Shown: positions 38,781 to 45,172 of the stretch, piece after piece
Numbering within the stretch: position 1 is the first letter of the stretch
How the letters are laid out: every line of letters begins with the position of its first letter
Source: Saccharomonospora azurea NA-128
GTDB taxonomy: Bacteria; Actinomycetota; Actinomycetes; Mycobacteriales; Pseudonocardiaceae
Reading direction: 5' to 3'
Length of the DNA stretch: 55,211 nt
Assembly (NCBI RefSeq): GCF_000231055.2
Contig: NZ_CM001466.1
Location: 582,696-637,906 of the forward strand
The notes under the pieces: model-generated
The model's database searches: none
What the model was told of the DNA's origin: nothing
The model's input: the letters and a program-made list of their open reading frames with translations, nothing else
Translations under genes and position numbers: made by a program

Positions 38781-39409
38781 TGACGGAGTCCTTCAAGACC
38801 GGTGTCGGTGTCGTGGACCGGTCGGTGGCGATCCTGGACTGTGTGGAGAGCCGCCCGATGGGCACGAGCGAGCTGGCCAGGACGCTGGGACTCACCGTGT
38901 CCACCGCACACCGGCTGGCCACGGCGCTCGCGGCGCACGGATTGCTGCGCCGTGACGCCGACGGCCGGTTCCATCTGGGACCGCGCTTCGCGACCTCCGC
39001 CTTGGCCGAGGTCGCCCGCCCGGTGCTGGACGAACTCTGCGCCACGGCAGGCGAGTGCGTCCAACTGTGGGTGCGTCGCGCCGACCACCGCCTGTGCGTG
39101 GTGAGCGTCGAGTGCGGCGAGGAACTGCGGGCGAGCCAGCCGGAGGGCTGCCTGCTCCCGCTGCCGCACGGCTCGTCGGCGCAGGTGCTGCTGGGCGAGT
39201 ACGACCCCGCCGGACCCGGTTGGGTGGAGAGCATGCAGGGCCGCGCACCGGGTGTGGGGTCGGTGAGTGCGCCGGTGCGTCTGCACGGCGACGTCGTCGC
39301 CGCGGTGTGCCTGTCGGCGCCGATCCAGCGACTCGACCCGAACCCCGGCGCCCGCTACGGGGCGCAGGTGGTGGCCGCCGCCGCCCGCATCGAGGCCGCA
39401 CTGGCCTGA
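38780..39409 (+). CDS. IclR-family transcriptional regulator
   Basis: A 209-residue IclR protein. The N-terminal HTH reads V-D-R-S-V-A-I-L-D-C, then G-T-S-E-L-A-R-T-L-G-L-T-V-S-T-A-H-R-L, and G-L-L-R-R-D-A-D-G-R-F-H-L-G-P-R, the family hallmark; the effector domain begins near residue 75. Length is at the short end (usual ~250), mainly because the effector domain is compact; the final A-A-R-I-E-A-A-L-A is typical. ATG 38780 has GGAGG upstream, with a GTG immediately before. It probably controlled the now-decayed gluconate/sugar-acid genes next to it. Confidence 0.87.
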   Translation: MTESFKTGVGVVDRSVAILDCVESRPMGTSELARTLGLTVSTAHRLATALAAHGLLRRDADGRFHLGPRFATSALAEVARPVLDELCATAGECVQLWVRRADHRLCVVSVECGEELRASQPEGCLLPLPHGSSAQVLLGEYDPAGPGWVESMQGRAPGVGSVSAPVRLHGDVVAAVCLSAPIQRLDPNPGARYGAQVVAAAARIEAALA

Positions 39410-39734
39410 GCGGGGTTCCGCAGTCGGATGGCCTGTCCGACTACTACCGCGTCAGGGCGGTCGACAACCACTCCGTGTGGCGGCCGGTGACGTGGAAGGC
39501 GACTGGTGAGCCCGGGAGCGGGAACAGGGGCCGCTGAAGCGTCGGCATGCCGAAACGTCTTGGGCTTCCCGTGCCCCGAACACCGCCATCGTGCGCCCGC
39601 GAACACCCGCAAACGTCACCTGGTCAGAGCTTTCCCGGCACCCTCTGGTTGCGGTTCGGTGGGGATCGCAACCGTCCGCGATGACACGGCGAGCGGGCGT
39701 TGGTCGACGCACGTCGAGCGGGAAGGAGCCAGCG
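39410..39734. other. Intergenic region before the RiPP operon
   Basis: Most of this 325-bp interval is spacer holding the promoter of the graspetide operon; GGAAGGAG lies 5 bases before the precursor ATG. At 39434-39537 a plus-strand frame without a start reads L-S-D-Y-Y-R-V-R-A-V-D-N-H-S-V-W-R-P-V-T and ends at a TGA. It resembles the edge strand of a fibronectin-III or similar beta domain and may be a 3' gene remnant. No operator dyad stands out by eye. Confidence 0.4.
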
Positions 39735-40040
39735 ATGCGCCCATTTTCTGAGCACGATCCAGCGGCGAGCCCACTGTCGTCGGCGGCACTGCGTTACCAC
39801 GTGCGGCAGCGGGCCGTTGCCGATGGCGTGGGCCCGGAGGCGACCCGACCGTTCGGGCTGCTGGGCGCGGTTGGCGTTCCCACTCCGCAGCGGCGGAAGA
39901 GTCGTTACTGCCCCCACCGGCAGGTCGCCGTCGACGAGCAGGGGCGGCCGTTGATGGAGACGATGAGCAAGGAGTGGGCCAGCAAATCCTCCAGCGACGG
40001 GGACGAAGGGCCCGAGGAGGACTGGGGTTGGGAAGAGTGA
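39735..40040 (+). CDS. ATP-grasp RiPP (graspetide) precursor peptide
   Basis: A 101-residue peptide, first gene of a three-gene operon. The leader contains the R-P-F-G-L motif (residues 38-42) that is characteristic of precursors modified by this class of ATP-grasp enzyme (TIGR04186-type), followed by C-P-H-R-Q-V-A-V-D-E-Q-G-R-P-L (59-73). The C-terminal core (about 74-101) is rich in hydroxy/amine nucleophiles (Thr76, Ser78, Lys79, Ser83, Lys84, Ser85-87) and acids (Asp88, Asp90, Glu91, Glu94, Glu95, Asp96, Glu100, Glu101), as needed for side-chain ester or amide links. Asp88-Gly89 is a candidate aspartimide site. The GTGA overlap with the ligase gene couples translation. At 101 residues it is long for the family. 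Confidence 0.88.
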   Translation: MRPFSEHDPAASPLSSAALRYHVRQRAVADGVGPEATRPFGLLGAVGVPTPQRRKSRYCPHRQVAVDEQGRPLMETMSKEWASKSSSDGDEGPEEDWGWEE

Positions 40041-41017
40041 ACAGCGCGGCCTCGACGGTGGTGGTGTTCGCCCAGGACGCTGATGCCCCCGCCGACGCGG
40101 TGGTGCAGGAGCTCGACCGGCGTGGCGTGCCCGTGTTTCGCGCCGACCTGTCCTGGTTTCCGCAGCGGCTGCGGCTGGACGCACGCCTCGACGGCGAAGG
40201 CCGCTGGTGCGGCCGGCTGTGGACCGACCACCGCAGCGTGCGCTTGGAAGACGTGCGGGCCATCTGGTACCGCGACCCGGCCGCGTTCGAGTTCCCCGGC
40301 ACGCTGACCGACGTCGAACGCGCCTACGCGCACCGGGAGGCGCGGCTGGGGTTCGGTGGGGTGCTGGCCGCGCTGCCGGTGCGATGGGTCAACCACCCCA
40401 ATCGCGCGGCCGACGCCATGTACAAGCCGTTGCAGCTGGCCACTGCCGCCGCGTGCGGGCTCCGGGTGCAGCCCACCCTGGTCACCAACGCCCCGCCTGC
40501 GGTGAAGGACTTCGCCGACCAGCACGGTGAGCTGGTGTGCAAGTCGTTCGGCCCGAACACGATCACCGAAGGCGGCCAGCTCAAAGTCGCTTACACGCGC
40601 CGGCTGTCCCACGACGATCTGGCCGCACTCGAGGGAGTCGCCTCGACCGCGACCCAGCTGCAACGTTGGGTCGACAAAGCCCACGAGGCGCGCGTGGTGG
40701 TGGTCGGAGACCGCATCTTCACGATCACCATCACCACCGCCTCCGCCGCGGCCCGCGTGGACTGGCGGGCGGACTTCGCGGCGCTGCGCTACGAGCACAT
40801 CGACACTCCCGACCAGATCGCCGAGCCGCTGCGCCGCTACATGCACGCGCTGGGCCTGGCCTACGCCGCGGTCGACTTCGCCGTGGACACCGACGGGCGA
40901 TGGCACTTCCTGGAAGCCAACACCTCCGGCCAGTATGGGTGGCTGGAAACGCAGACCGGGGCCCCGATCACCCACGCCCTGGCTGACCTGCTCACCCGTC
41001 CGAAGGGGCAGCCGTGA
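40037..41017 (+). CDS. ATP-grasp RiPP maturase (graspetide macrocyclase)
   Basis: A 326-residue ATP-grasp ligase of the actinobacterial peptide-maturase type. Residues 77-83 (I-W-Y-R-D-P-A) and 126-134 (A-D-A-M-Y-K-P-L-Q) are subgroup motifs; the ATP-grasp lysine region includes C-K-S-F-G-P-N (168-174) and the metal-binding end is D-F-A-V-D-T-D-G-R-W-H-F-L-E-A-N (280-295; Asp, Glu293 and Asn295 coordinate Mg-ATP). The following T-S-G-Q-Y-G-W-L-E (296-304) is conserved in graspetide ligases. It activates acidic side chains as acyl phosphates and joins them to Ser/Thr/Lys side chains of the core. GTG start overlaps the precursor stop. Confidence 0.9.
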   Translation: MNSAASTVVVFAQDADAPADAVVQELDRRGVPVFRADLSWFPQRLRLDARLDGEGRWCGRLWTDHRSVRLEDVRAIWYRDPAAFEFPGTLTDVERAYAHREARLGFGGVLAALPVRWVNHPNRAADAMYKPLQLATAAACGLRVQPTLVTNAPPAVKDFADQHGELVCKSFGPNTITEGGQLKVAYTRRLSHDDLAALEGVASTATQLQRWVDKAHEARVVVVGDRIFTITITTASAAARVDWRADFAALRYEHIDTPDQIAEPLRRYMHALGLAYAAVDFAVDTDGRWHFLEANTSGQYGWLETQTGAPITHALADLLTRPKGQP

Positions 41018-42204
41018 CCCGAAACATCGTCGACGTCGAATGGCGGTCGCACGCACACCGGCTCGCCGGCGAACTCGAGCAGGCGGGAAAGCTCACCGAC
41101 CCGCGTCTAGCCGCCGCGGTGCAAGCCACGCCCCGGCACCGGTTCACGCCCACGGTCTACCGCCGCCAATCCAACGGCAGGTGGGCCTGCCAGGTCAGCG
41201 TCGACGACCTCGACACCGTCTACAGCAACACCACCCTGATCACCGCACTGACCGATACCGAGGAGACAGTGCTGTCGTCCTCGACTCAACCCGGTCTGAT
41301 GACCCGCATGATCGAGGCGCTGCGCCTCACCGACGGGGCGCGCGTGCTGGAGATCGGCACCGGCACCGGCTACAACGCCGCCCTGCTGTGTCACCTCCTG
41401 GGCGAGCAGGCCGTGTTCACCGTCGACGTCGAGCCCGCACTCGTGCACGACGCGCGGCAGCGGCTGGCCCAGCTTGGCCACCACCCGCTGGTGGTGGCCG
41501 CCGACGGCGCCGCCGGCCTGGCCGAACACGCCCCGTTCGACGCGATCCTGGCGACATGCGCGGTGCCGGCGGTGCCGTGGGCGTGGGTGGAACAGACCAC
41601 GCCAGGCGGGGTGATCCTCACCGACCTGAAGGTAGCGGTCAACGCGGGGAGCCTGGTCCGATTGACGCGCACCGACGTCGACCGTGCCGAAGGCCGCTTC
41701 GATCCGACGTATGCGGCCTTCATGGACCTACGCCATTCTCCTGGCGCGACCCGACGGTCCCGGCGGATACACCGCGACCACGACGACGCCGAGCACCGCA
41801 CCACCTGTGTCGATCCGACAACGCCGTCGACGTCGCTGCTGGTGTGGTTCCTTGCCGCCCTCGAGTTGGGGCGCGATATCGCCCACGGCTACACCCTGCC
41901 CCCCGACGCGGGCCCCGGCTATGACGGCCCACCAAGCGCTGCCTTCCTCACCACACCGGACGGCTCGTGGGCCGAGGTCACGCTCGCCGCCGAGCCGAAC
42001 GGCGAACACGTCGTCGTCGAAGGCGGGCCGCGTCGCGTGTGGCGGGTGGTCGAACACGCTCATCACACCTGGGCCCGCCTCGGCCGCCCGGGCTGGAACC
42101 GTTTCGGACTCACCGTCACTCCCGACACGCACACCCTGTGGCTCGACCGGCCCGACAGCCCGCACACCTGGCAGATCCCGGTAAGCCCCTACCCGAGTGA
42201 GTGA
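41014..42204 (+). CDS. PIMT-like O-methyltransferase of the graspetide operon
   Basis: A 396-residue protein. Residues about 25-230 match L-isoaspartyl O-methyltransferase: the V-L-S-S-S-T-Q-P-G-L-M-T stretch (87-98, PIMT S-x-S-Q-P motif), SAM motif V-L-E-I-G-T-G-T-G-Y-N-A (111-122) and V-D-V-E. The C-terminal ~165 residues form an additional domain absent from ordinary PIMTs but present in homologues that accompany ATP-grasp RiPP ligases (TIGR04188 type). Known members methylate a specific Asp in the graspetide core, which then closes to a stable aspartimide. Its GTG overlaps the ligase stop (GTGA), completing a translationally coupled operon. Confidence 0.9.
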   Translation: MTRNIVDVEWRSHAHRLAGELEQAGKLTDPRLAAAVQATPRHRFTPTVYRRQSNGRWACQVSVDDLDTVYSNTTLITALTDTEETVLSSSTQPGLMTRMIEALRLTDGARVLEIGTGTGYNAALLCHLLGEQAVFTVDVEPALVHDARQRLAQLGHHPLVVAADGAAGLAEHAPFDAILATCAVPAVPWAWVEQTTPGGVILTDLKVAVNAGSLVRLTRTDVDRAEGRFDPTYAAFMDLRHSPGATRRSRRIHRDHDDAEHRTTCVDPTTPSTSLLVWFLAALELGRDIAHGYTLPPDAGPGYDGPPSAAFLTTPDGSWAEVTLAAEPNGEHVVVEGGPRRVWRVVEHAHHTWARLGRPGWNRFGLTVTPDTHTLWLDRPDSPHTWQIPVSPYPSE

Positions 42205-42289
42205 GATCGGGGCACGGCGGCACACCCGCCCGACGATGCTCCAGACGGACCGAATCCCGCGGGAGCGCACGTGGTCGTCGAACGGCAAG

Positions 42290-42605
42290 GCCAGCCGTTG
42301 GCTGCTGTGTCCTGGGCCCGGCTACAGCTGGGTTGCAGCGAAACGACGTGAGCAGGAGGCGTGCCTGCGGGCGTTGGTCAGCGACCTGGTGGAGTCCAGC
42401 GCGGCACGGCTGGTCCTCGGGCGCGACGACGTCGTGCTCGACGTTGATCGCCGTGTGCTGTATCGGCGGCTTTATGAGCTCGGACAGCCTGATCTGAGCG
42501 AACGACCACCTTCGCGCACACGAAGAGCCACGCCTGGCGATCCCGGACGTCGTAGGTTGGTGCTGGGGTCGGGGAGTCCAGGGGCAGTTCTACGGTGACC
42601 AGCTC
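42290..42605 (+). pseudogene. Frameshifted remnant of a conserved actinobacterial protein
   Basis: One frame (about 42345-42495) encodes A-C-L-R-A-L-V-S-D-L-V-E-S-S-A-A-R-L-V-L-G-R-D-D and D-R-R-V-L-Y-R-R-L-Y-E-L-G; then a different frame (about 42505-42605) encodes H-L-R-A-H-E-E-P-R-L-A-I-P-D-V-V-G-W-C-W-G-R-G. Together these match the C-terminal half of a widespread hypothetical protein of actinomycetes with the motif H-x-R-A-H-E-E-L-L-L-A-I-P-D-A-I-A-W-C-W. At least one frameshift and loss of the N-terminal half have occurred. It follows the RiPP operon but is not a typical member of such operons. Confidence 0.65.
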
Positions 42606-42634
42606 GTTTCAGCTCACACCTGAGCACCCGGGCG

Positions 42635-43207
42635 TCACTGGACGCGCGCCGACTGTCCCGTGGCGACGGTGAGATCGAGCTGGATCGGCAGTTCCGGATC
42701 GTCCAGGGCGGCCCGCGCGTGGGCCAGTGCCTCGCTCTCGATGCGCTCGCGCAGCGCCGGGAGATCGGCGGTGTCCTCGACCGTGGCGGTGACCACGAGC
42801 GTGAGGTCGTCCGCGTGGCCGATCATCCGGGCGTCCGCCGAGGACACGCCGCGATAGCTTTCGATCTCGTCGGTGACCGCACGGGTCACGGCGGCCGTTG
42901 ACAGTCTGGTGCGCCCCGCCCCTTCCGCCTGCACCTCCAGATCGCCGGCGCGGTCGGTGGAGAAGAGGATCACCAGCAGCCACCGCAGGCACAGCAGCAC
43001 GAGCAGCAGCGCCGCGACGGCGACCACCGGCCAGAACCAGGTGCCGTTGCGGCCGGCGTAGTCGGCGACGACGTGGTCGGTCAGCGACCGGCGCTGGATC
43101 TCGCTTCCGAACAGGCCGAACGAGGCGGCCGCGCCGAGGCCACCCGCGGCGAGGAGGACGAGCGCGAGGACGATGAGAACCGTGCGGTTCGTGCGGTCGG
43201 CGTGCAT
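42635..43207 (-). CDS. AmaP-like membrane protein of the Asp23 cluster
   Basis: A 190-residue protein with two hydrophobic segments: about residues 9-27 (V-L-I-V-L-A-L-V-L-L-A-A-G-G-L) and 57-83 (F-W-P-V-V-A-V-A-A-L-L-L-V-L-L-C). A soluble domain of about 100 residues follows with the Asp23-like elements V-T-R-A-V-T-D-E-I-E-S-Y-R-G-V and V-V-T-A-T-V-E-D-T-A-D-L. AmaP-type proteins anchor Asp23 to the membrane. It is the most downstream gene of the cluster; its ATG shares an A with the preceding stop (TGATG). Function by context: membrane docking of envelope-stress proteins. Confidence 0.72.
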   Translation of the reverse strand: MHADRTNRTVLIVLALVLLAAGGLGAAASFGLFGSEIQRRSLTDHVVADYAGRNGTWFWPVVAVAALLLVLLCLRWLLVILFSTDRAGDLEVQAEGAGRTRLSTAAVTRAVTDEIESYRGVSSADARMIGHADDLTLVVTATVEDTADLPALRERIESEALAHARAALDDPELPIQLDLTVATGQSARVQ

Positions 43208-43749
43208 CAGGTGCTCCGGGTGCGGACCGAGACGGACGGGGTCGAGCGCAGTTGGAGGCGCCGCAGCGTGTCGCGGGTGGCGTCCGCCGCCGCCTCGTCG
43301 AGTCGCCGCACCGCCGCCTTGTTGAAGCTGCCCGTGGTCGCGGACACCCTGATTCTGCGCCGTTTCACCTTCACCCGTGCCGACCGGACGCCGTCGACCC
43401 CGGTCACTGCCGCGCGCACGGCCGCCGCCACTCCGCGGCGGGTGTAGGCGGTGTCGACGGGCCGCGTGTCGGTGCCCGTTTCGGCAGCCACGCGAAGTCG
43501 GCGCAGTCGCGGGCGCTTCACCTCGGCCAGCAGCAGGACGAGGCCGACGACGAACAGCGCCACACAGACGATGCGGACCACGACGTTCTGCCACGACGTG
43601 CCGTCGGCCCACTGCTGAGTGGCTCGCCAGTCCCAGACCACGGGTTCCGCGCCGACCAGCGCGGCGATCACCTCGGCGATCACCAGCACACCTCCGGCGA
43701 TGAGCGCGAGGCACAGCAGCGTGGCGAGGAGCCGGTTGACCAACCTCAT
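43207..43749 (-). CDS. DUF6286-like membrane protein of the Asp23 cluster
   Basis: A 180-residue protein with two transmembrane helices (about 6-33 and 58-77) separated by a short extracytoplasmic loop (V-W-D-W-R-A-T-Q-Q-W-A-D-G-T-S-W-Q-N), then a basic cytoplasmic domain with Asp23-like alternation (A-A-V-R-A-A-V-T-G-V-D-G-V-R-S-A-R-V-K-V). The W-D-W and T-S-W-Q-N pattern is typical of the DUF6286 proteins in actinobacterial Asp23 loci. It starts with an ATG overlapping the previous stop (ATGA). It likely forms a membrane platform with its neighbours; biochemical function is unknown. Confidence 0.72.
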   Translation of the reverse strand: MRLVNRLLATLLCLALIAGGVLVIAEVIAALVGAEPVVWDWRATQQWADGTSWQNVVVRIVCVALFVVGLVLLLAEVKRPRLRRLRVAAETGTDTRPVDTAYTRRGVAAAVRAAVTGVDGVRSARVKVKRRRIRVSATTGSFNKAAVRRLDEAAADATRDTLRRLQLRSTPSVSVRTRST

Positions 43750-44186
43750 GCGTTCGCCCCGTCCACTCGTCGTGGCCGCTCGCCCGTGGTCAGGTCGGTC
43801 ACCTCGATGTCGATGTCGGTGACCACCAGTCCGGTCAGTTCCGCGACCCGGTCACCGACGTGGCGCCGCACGGCCGCGCAGACGCGGGGGATCGGCGCGG
43901 GCCAGCGGACGCTGATCACGAGGGACAGGCGCGCGGTGGCGCCGTCGACGCGGGCGATGGTCTTCGGCGCCGTCGTGAGGCTCGTGCGCCGCACTCCCGG
44001 GGTCTTCCGGCGACCGAGCATCCGCCCGAACCCGGAGGCGGCCGACCCGGCGTCCGGGATCTCCGCCGCCGCGTACGCCGCGATTTTCGCGACGACGTCG
44101 TCGCTGATGTCGATGCGGCCCAGCTCCGTGCGACCGGGCCGGGCGCGCTCCGGCGACATCGGTGCGGTGTCCTGCTGACCGGTCAT
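43746..44186 (-). CDS. Asp23/Gls24-family envelope stress protein
   Basis: A 146-residue Asp23 protein: I-S-D-D-V-V-A-K-I-A-A-Y-A-A-A-E-I-P near residues 26-43, then the variable R-K-T-P-G-V-R-R insert, and the conserved C-terminal strand-helix V-R-W-P-A-P-I-P-R-V-C-A-A-V-R-R-H-V-G-D-R-V-A-E-L-T-G. Asp23-family proteins coat the inner face of the membrane and respond to alkaline or cell-wall stress. It is one of three Asp23-like genes in this cluster, with a 4-bp overlap to both neighbours, so they are synthesised together. The Pro-rich variation P-A-P-I-P may change assembly. Confidence 0.8.
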   Translation of the reverse strand: MTGQQDTAPMSPERARPGRTELGRIDISDDVVAKIAAYAAAEIPDAGSAASGFGRMLGRRKTPGVRRTSLTTAPKTIARVDGATARLSLVISVRWPAPIPRVCAAVRRHVGDRVAELTGLVVTDIDIEVTDLTTGERPRRVDGANA

Positions 44187-44365
44187 CGGCTCTGGCGCCG
44201 GTCCGGCACGTAACGGGAGAGGTCGATGTCGCCGTCGAGGACCTTGCCGATCACGTAGCCGATCAGGGTCACGAACAGGACGATCAGCAGGTGGCCGAAC
44301 CCGCCGAAGGCCCAGGACAGGCCGAACGCCAGCCCGACCAGCGTTCCGATGTGTGCGCGGGTCAT
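44183..44365 (-). CDS. Small DUF2273-like membrane protein
   Basis: A 60-residue protein that starts at ATG 44365 with GTGAGG just upstream (an in-frame ATG nine bases before lacks a ribosome site). Residues 6-40 form two close hydrophobic segments (G-T-L-V-G-L-A-F-G-L-S-W-A-F-G-G-F-G, L-L-I-V-L-F-V-T-L-I-G-Y-V-I-G), and the tail is charged (D-I-D-L-S-R-Y-V-P-D-R). This size and the G-x-x-x-G pattern match DUF2273, the usual small membrane partner encoded between Asp23 genes. It is probably part of the Asp23 membrane anchor. Overlaps the next gene by 4 bp. Confidence 0.75.
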   Translation of the reverse strand: MTRAHIGTLVGLAFGLSWAFGGFGHLLIVLFVTLIGYVIGKVLDGDIDLSRYVPDRRQSR

Positions 44366-44375
44366 GGTCCTCACC

Positions 44376-44723
44376 TCACAAGTCGATATCGGGATCGGCG
44401 CGCTCGTGCGGCGCGTCGACCAGGCCGGCGACGATCACGTCGACCCGCCGTCCCGCCACGTGCGGCGCGACCGCCGCCTGGATGCGCCTGCCGAGCTCCG
44501 GTACCGGGACGCCCCACTGCGCCGTGACCTGCACGGTCACGCGGTCCGGTTCCACGCGGACACCGGGCACCGTGCGGCCGGGCAGATACGACACGACCGG
44601 CGCCTGGGCCGGTGTGGACGTGCCGCCGTCGAGGTGGGCCACCCCGTCGCAGGTGCGGGCGGCGGCGGCCACGCGGTCGACATCGACACCGTCCACGATC
44701 CCGGGAGCCGACGCAGCGGTCAT
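44376..44723 (-). CDS. Divergent Asp23-like protein
   Basis: A 115-residue protein without membrane segments. The second half fits an Asp23-type unit: V-R-V-E-P-D-R-V-T-V-Q-V-T-A-Q-W-G-V-P-V-P-E, then L-G-R-R-I-Q-A-A-V-A-P and V-D-V-I-V-A-G-L-V-D. The N-terminal part is shorter than in ordinary Asp23 proteins (V-A-A-A-A-R-T-C-D-G-V-A-H-L-D-G-G). It lies between the first Asp23 gene and the DUF2273 gene in the same operon (ATGA overlap upstream, 10-bp gap downstream). Likely an accessory subunit; no independent activity can be inferred. Confidence 0.68.
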   Translation of the reverse strand: MTAASAPGIVDGVDVDRVAAAARTCDGVAHLDGGTSTPAQAPVVSYLPGRTVPGVRVEPDRVTVQVTAQWGVPVPELGRRIQAAVAPHVAGRRVDVIVAGLVDAPHERADPDIDL

Positions 44724-45172
44724 GACACCCTCTGCTGCGTGTCCTGTCCTTCCTCGTCCGGCAGGTACACGTCGTCCACGTTGATGTTGACCTCGGTGAC
44801 CTCCAGCCCGGTCATGCGTTCGACGGCCTGCTTGACGTTGCGTTGGATGCTCCGGCCGAGCTCGGCCACCGAGATGCCGTACTCGACCACGATGTCCAGG
44901 TCGACCGCCGCCTGGGTTTCCCCGACCTCGACGCCGACTCCCTGGGAGAAGCTGGGGCCGGAGCTGCCGGGGATGCGTTCCCGGATGGCGCCGACGGCCC
45001 GGCCGCCGGACGTGCCCATGGCGTGTACTCCGCTGATCTCCCGGCAGGCGACGCCGGCGATCTTCGAGACCACGCTCTGGGAGACGCTGATCCGGCCGTC
45101 GTCGGTGGACAGCGGGTCGTGCGACGACCGTTTCGACGGTCGGCTGCCCGTGGTTTGCTCGGGTTGGGACAT
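44720..45172 (-). CDS. Asp23/Gls24-family envelope stress protein (lead gene)
   Basis: A 150-residue Asp23 protein and the first gene of the six-gene cluster. The core is I-S-V-S-Q-S-V-V-S-K-I-A-G-V-A-C-R-E-I-S-G-V-H-A-M-G near residues 29-54, then V-D-L-D-I-V-V-E-Y-G-I-S-V-A-E-L-G-R-S-I-Q-R-N-V and V-E-R-M-T-G-L-E-V-T-E-V-N-I-N-V-D-D-V-Y-L, a nearly textbook Asp23 sequence. The 271-bp region upstream, divergent from an aldo/keto reductase, must hold the promoter; stress sigma control is expected but I cannot define the motif. It is likely the main surface protein of the complex. Confidence 0.9.
   Translation of the reverse strand: MSQPEQTTGSRPSKRSSHDPLSTDDGRISVSQSVVSKIAGVACREISGVHAMGTSGGRAVGAIRERIPGSSGPSFSQGVGVEVGETQAAVDLDIVVEYGISVAELGRSIQRNVKQAVERMTGLEVTEVNINVDDVYLPDEEGQDTQQRVS

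Follow-up and report, generated by a model that had tools for sequence, protein, structure and literature searches.

The genome of Saccharomonospora azurea NA-128 carries, at 39735-42204 of the 55,211-nt stretch analysed here (positions 582,696-637,906 of the 4.76-Mb, single-contig genome; subsequently designated the window), three overlapping genes, which raise the question of what they make: a graspetide that bears an aspartimide in addition to its side-chain links, and if so, one linked through which residues? A sequence-only reading of the window had proposed a three-gene operon, and its coordinates proved exact, with GTGA overlaps at 40037-40040 between the precursor and ligase genes and at 41014-41017 between the ligase and methyltransferase genes. 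The first gene (39735-40040, + strand) starts with ATG behind the ribosome-binding site GGAAGGAG (39721-39728, +), which was read from the sequence, and encodes a precursor peptide of 101 aa, with a calculated monoisotopic mass of 11168.39 when unmodified and untagged. As noted before, R-P-F-G-L occupies residues 38-42 of the precursor; the codons for R38-P-F-G41 lie at 39846-39857 (+), and RPFG is named as the key leader recognition sequence of the fuscimiditide system in the available text of PMC13003496. The second gene (40037-41017, +) starts with GTG and encodes an ATP-grasp ligase of 326 aa, in which the previously recognized T-S-G-Q-Y-G-W-L-E element was located at residues 296-304. The third gene (41014-42204, +), also with a GTG start, encodes a PIMT-like methyltransferase of 396 aa with a C-terminal extension. 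Genes annotated by family on both sides, i.e. SulP-family and IclR genes upstream and DUF6286 and Asp23 genes downstream, bear out the earlier statement that no transporter or protease gene adjoins the operon.

The sequence-only reading had suggested a comparison of the three proteins with the models TIGR04186, TIGR04187 and TIGR04188. In profile searches, the precursor scored 37.6 bits against TIGR04186 (cut-off 25, E 1.7e-9) and the ligase 408.2 bits against TIGR04187 (cut-off 350, E 2.2e-122). These two assignments held, but the methyltransferase, which matched TIGR04188 over positions 1-362 of the 363 in the profile (E 9.8e-108), reached 360.7 bits and thus remained 19 bits under the cut-off of 380. 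Such a shortfall is common in graspimiditide methyltransferases, since five of six comparison proteins from other loci also scored below the cut-off (374.1, 355.9, 348.4, 335.8 and 322.2 bits, the last of these being a piece only), while one passed with 429.2 bits. Pfam matches were PF14408 Actino_peptide for the precursor (E 1.5e-9), the MvdD pre-ATP-grasp domain for the ligase and PF01135 PCMT for the methyltransferase (E 2.2e-31). A search of the PDB returned 9bou, 5ig9, 5ig8, CdnC, AMdnB and 7drm as solved relatives of the ligase and Thermotoga maritima PIMT (1dl5) plus 22 others (E up to 0.01) as those of the methyltransferase, while the whole precursor as query yielded nothing of use. 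Similar genes are already named tgmA and tgmB in public annotation, e.g. on plasmids of Streptomyces atratus and Saccharopolyspora pogona. The extra C-terminal domain that had been ascribed to the methyltransferase corresponds to its long C-terminal extension. Structure models calculated from four-row alignments were poor (mean pLDDT 51 for the ligase and 42 for the methyltransferase). At this mean pLDDT of 42, residues 260-355 of the methyltransferase were modelled as strand, helix, four strands and helix, which is the order reported for the C-terminal domain common to these methyltransferases in the available text of PMC10787088, where SsfA is also described; we take this agreement only as a hint.

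According to the accessible portion of PMC13001092, the name graspimiditides has been proposed for group 13 graspetides, whose clusters number 1326, 962 or 1432 by three counts. The earlier interpretation of precursor, ATP-grasp and PIMT as the architecture of aspartimidylated graspetides agrees with group 13 as portrayed there, and the TIGR04186 precursor, the TIGR04187 ligase and RPFG at leader residues 38-41 are group 13 traits present in the operon. In addition, D88-G89, the predicted aspartimide site (39996-40001, +), sits between the candidate donors S83/S87 and the candidate acceptors E95/E100. Thr-Asp ester pairs are absent, as there is no Thr after T76 and the conserved acids are Glu; in the same text, however, these pairs are a trait of the characterised members and not of the definition of group 13 by gene content. 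Judged by these sequence traits, the operon is a complete group 13 graspetide (graspimiditide) operon, a member of an established family of natural products. Matches of all three proteins to family models, kept gene order, the core pattern shared with relatives and the RPFG leader argue that its product is very probably an aspartimide-bearing graspetide; the TIGR04188 score under the cut-off and a single relative without a methyltransferase match count against this reading.

The chemical steps, all of which we infer, would proceed as follows. The RPFG motif of the leader would dock on the ATP-grasp ligase, which would phosphorylate acidic side chains near the C-terminus of the precursor. Ser/Thr and possibly Lys side chains would then attack the activated acids with loss of one water per link, giving rise to a nested stem-loop. 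The methyltransferase is expected to recognise the stapled peptide and to methylate Asp88 of Asp88-Gly89 in the loop, whereupon the methyl ester would close to the aspartimide, which can open to isoaspartate. In the available text of PMC13001092, linear precursors are left unmodified by graspimiditide methyltransferases, and the methylated Asp of the characterised members is followed by Gly and located in the loop. Leader removal and export would have to rely on genes elsewhere or be absent. Absence of a protease gene beside the operon is normal, since graspimiditides have no known native leader protease as far as the text of PMC12291112 at hand reports.

Relatives of the operon were sought among 390 genomes of the family Pseudonocardiaceae. 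TIGR04186 matched in 76 of them (E up to 1e-4), as did a four-tail precursor model (76 of 390, E up to 1e-3) built from the precursors of the operon itself and of loci L010, L011 and L012; the latter model found 20 places at E <1e-20, own locus included. In the genus (12 genomes, own included), TIGR04186 was detected in three, i.e. S. azurea, G332 and G333, and the precursors of the latter two carry cores of different type. When a class-wide sample of 394 genomes was searched with a 25-row model, the own genome matched strongly and three others weakly; this result says little beyond the family, because only two other family members are listed in the sample and 15 candidates were scored per genome. 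The 25 rows comprise the precursor tail of S. azurea and those of 24 relatives from 24 genomes, which were chosen by visual inspection and, in a second step, for the presence of DG as well as W-E-[ET] near the end. The 24 aligned family precursors share, with few exceptions, the pattern K-[DE]-W-x-[ST]...DG...E-x-[WYF]-x-W-E-E, which marks the predicted carrier of the cross-links, residues K79-E101 (39969-40037, +). In the 25 rows, K79 is found in 24, D/E80 in 25, W81 in 23, S/T83 in 25 and S/T/K87 in 25 (S/T in 23, K in two), followed by D88-G89 and D/E90 in 25 each, E95 in 24, W99 and E100 in 25 each and E101 in 24; nine rows have D or E at position 96. The counts for DG, W99 and E100 weigh less, because they are partly built into the choice of rows, while K79, positions 83 and 87 and E95 were not among the selection criteria. 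Tails with other cores, as borne by other members of the family (e.g. PT...DG...SEDxxND), lie outside these counts, and so do L025 (G130) and L011, whose tails share the core type. Including these two alters nothing of substance: in 27 rows, position 83 is S/T in 27, position 87 is S/T/K in 27 and E95 is present in 26, with a loop of 11 between 83 and 95 in 22 rows and of seven between 87 and 95 in 24.

Gene order is kept along with the core. Behind the precursor, all 24 aligned relatives have an ATP-grasp reading, in one case (L063) split over two frames, and a methyltransferase start follows within the stretch examined in 23 of the 24; the exception is L066, in whose 3.2 kb no methyltransferase match was found. 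Two uncharacterised operons show the same core pattern and gene order, namely those of Actinosynnema pretiosum (L010; ligase 68% identical) and Saccharopolyspora spinosa (L012; ligase 61% identical). L010 has Thr at positions 83 and 87 and L012 has Thr at 83, whereas position 83 of the S. azurea peptide is Ser. We know of no product of either operon. Directly downstream of the related operon in A. pretiosum (L010, 7300-7640), we observed six CRISPR-like repeats with a spacing of 61 bases. L011 is an 11.9-kb contig in a record titled Rugamonas rubra ATCC 43154, a betaproteobacterium; its precursor and ligase are very like those of L012, and the contig is likely a contamination or mislabelled. 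In-frame stops are found ahead of its methyltransferase piece.

The operon lies in an insertion relative to two congeners. In S. azurea, the IclR gene (end at 39409) and the DUF6286 region (from about 42630) are separated by 3.2 kb (39410-42629), while the aligned flanks are 133 bp apart in G331 (L107) and 33 bp apart in G338 (L108), and no match to the operon proteins better than E 0.3 was found in these two genomes. Among the congeners, only G331 and G338 have both flanks together: G332 has the IclR gene and lacks the downstream gene, in G333 to G337 and G341 the downstream gene is present with no close IclR copy, and neither flank gene was found in G339 and G340. The island is not flanked by a pair of direct or inverted repeats, no gene of a recognised family was seen at its borders, its G+C content of 0.68-0.74 is that of its surroundings, and tRNA and Rfam matches were absent from the entire window. 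At the end of the island, a frame of 133 codons (42197-42598, +) without Pfam, NCBIfam or plasmid match is possibly a remnant. Directly downstream and outside the island, two DUF6286-type and two Asp23-family genes (42638-45172, -) are common to congeners, the first DUF6286 match being weak (19.4 bits, cut-off 35). Among plasmids, neither the precursor tail nor the frame at 42197 had a match; 76 records matched the ligase, each at <60% identity. The empty sites in two congeners offer a natural plus/minus comparison for the role of the peptide.

Broken relatives indicate that such operons come and go. Outside the window, the S. azurea genome itself holds a second locus, L078 (3677-5355, about G000:C1 289,676-291,354), which encodes a full-length TIGR04188-type methyltransferase (355.9 bits) and the C-terminal portion of an ATP-grasp enzyme that is 39% identical to residues 130-325; a TIGR04186 precursor above the cut-off was not found there, and L078 is likely a remnant. 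L079 of G332 (1747-2665) is a decayed cluster made up, in this order, of a precursor with another core, the N-terminal half of an ATP-grasp enzyme and a C-terminal methyltransferase fragment. S. spinosa has a further broken relative (L083, 7101-7998).

These remnants in the same genome and in G332 bear on the question whether the operon of the window could itself be decayed or silent and yield no product. A tblastn search with four regulators detected a divergent HTH regulator upstream in eight of the 24 relatives (in some cases at only 26-33% identity), while no such regulator was found in the window at E up to 1e-3 and neither a sigma-70-type promoter match nor a terminator-like match was obtained in 39380-42700. 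However, the remaining 16 relatives likewise showed no such regulator, all three frames are open and of full length with conserved motifs, and the precursor gene has a good ribosome-binding site in front of it; we consider a decayed or silent operon very unlikely. It is likewise conceivable that the methyltransferase is a protein-repair PIMT residing beside a plain graspetide pair, in which case no aspartimide would be made. Its PCMT domain and the TIGR04188 score below the cut-off would fit, but TIGR04188 beats the best repair model by more than 240 bits (360.7 versus 118.1): the cut-offs of neither PRK00312 (118.1 bits, cut-off 188) nor pimt TIGR00080 (94 bits, cut-off 159) were reached. The long C-terminal extension, the overlap of its start codon with the stop of the ligase gene and a gene order kept in 23 of the 24 relatives speak against repair as well and render it barely credible.

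Less clear-cut is which residues would be linked, and here, too, we infer the pairs from the alignment. Slightly favoured is a register with an inner Ser83-Glu95 ester and an outer link that involves Glu100 and may be an amide with Lys79. Residues 83 and 95 enclose 11 residues in 20 of the 25 rows (13 in four rows and 15 in one), and this loop of 11 falls within the range of 10-12 residues given for graspimiditides in the available text of PMC12291112. Moreover, the spacing from 79 to 83 is four in 24 rows and that from 95 to 100 is five in 23, as expected for the stem of a Ser83-Glu95/Lys79-Glu100 register. Against this assignment count K at position 95 in L064, the invariant nucleophile at position 87 and the loop between 87 and 95, which with seven residues in 22 of 25 rows is steadier. 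The latter two would suit nested Ser87-Glu95 and Ser83-Glu100 esters, with Lys79 as a bystander or engaged in a third link to Glu101, and esters alone would suffice for the S. azurea peptide. We regard this as a real possibility, if short of an even chance: a loop of seven is under the published range, the stem spacing from 83 to 87 varies in five rows and the conserved Lys79 would have no role unless it formed the third link. Returning to the Ser83-Glu95 register, its Lys79 amide would be unlike the links of the four characterised graspimiditides, among which no Lys amide is reported in the text of PMC13001092 at hand, and this counts against it. As a tentative and rather unlikely proposal in its complete form, the KEW/KDW core would define a mixed graspimiditide, in which a Ser/Thr-Glu ester forms the 11-residue loop, a Lys79-Glu100 amide closes the stem and the aromatic residues 81, 97 and 99 lie beside the links.

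How would such a peptide compare with known products? Amycolimiditide was compared by sequence, fuscimiditide and SsfA by the descriptions in the respective papers and albusimiditide by a general statement in the review. The earlier suggestion that the peptide is likely new stands with regard to amycolimiditide and the literature searched, but the core type is not unique to S. azurea and is carried by at least 24 other genomes. A search of a limited collection of article texts retrieved no match for the core string DGDEGPEE, for TIGR04186 or for Saccharomonospora together with graspetide. We consider with fair confidence, based on these comparisons, that the peptide is new as a characterised product. 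Only four graspimiditides have been made so far according to the accessible portion of PMC13001092, all of them Thr-Asp ester stem-loops; for the core type discussed here, which predicts Glu in place of Asp acceptors and possibly a Lys amide, the operon provides a compact three-gene set present in at least 24 other genomes.

The amycolimiditide operon (AmdA/AmdB/AmdM) has the same order of precursor, ATP-grasp and PIMT homologue genes and DG in the core. PDB entry 8DYM was reached by a query with another family member (a second such query returned no graspetide), and its exact 29-residue chain is encoded in G095, along with an RPFG leader; the S. azurea enzymes share 42% (ligase) and 38% (methyltransferase) identity with their counterparts in this operon. 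The four Thr and four Asp of the amycolimiditide core can be joined as four nested pairs of equal sum in a single way, around a loop of 10; this putative pairing agrees with the four Thr-Asp links reported. In contrast, Thr does not occur beyond T76 in the S. azurea core, where Glu accounts for most of the conserved acids; an amycolimiditide-type Thr-Asp ladder is thus impossible. Fuscimiditide (ThfA/ThfB/ThfM) shares the three genes, the RPFG leader and donors four residues apart, but differs, as far as described in the available texts of PMC12291112 and PMC13003496, by its Thr3-Asp22 and Thr7-Asp18 esters in a 22-residue core. The SsfA/SsfB/SsfM system of Streptomyces sp. F-3 likewise consists of the three genes, and the available text of PMC10787088 describes modification at Asp81-Gly82 and five links whose acceptors lie within the final 12 residues, a stretch with four Asp and no Glu. 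By this description, the Glu-rich end of the S. azurea core differs from the Asp-only acceptor stretch of SsfA, and the mixed type proposed above would, if true, combine an aspartimide with a stem-loop held by Glu links, one of them an amide; the four characterised products are reported to contain Thr-Asp esters instead.
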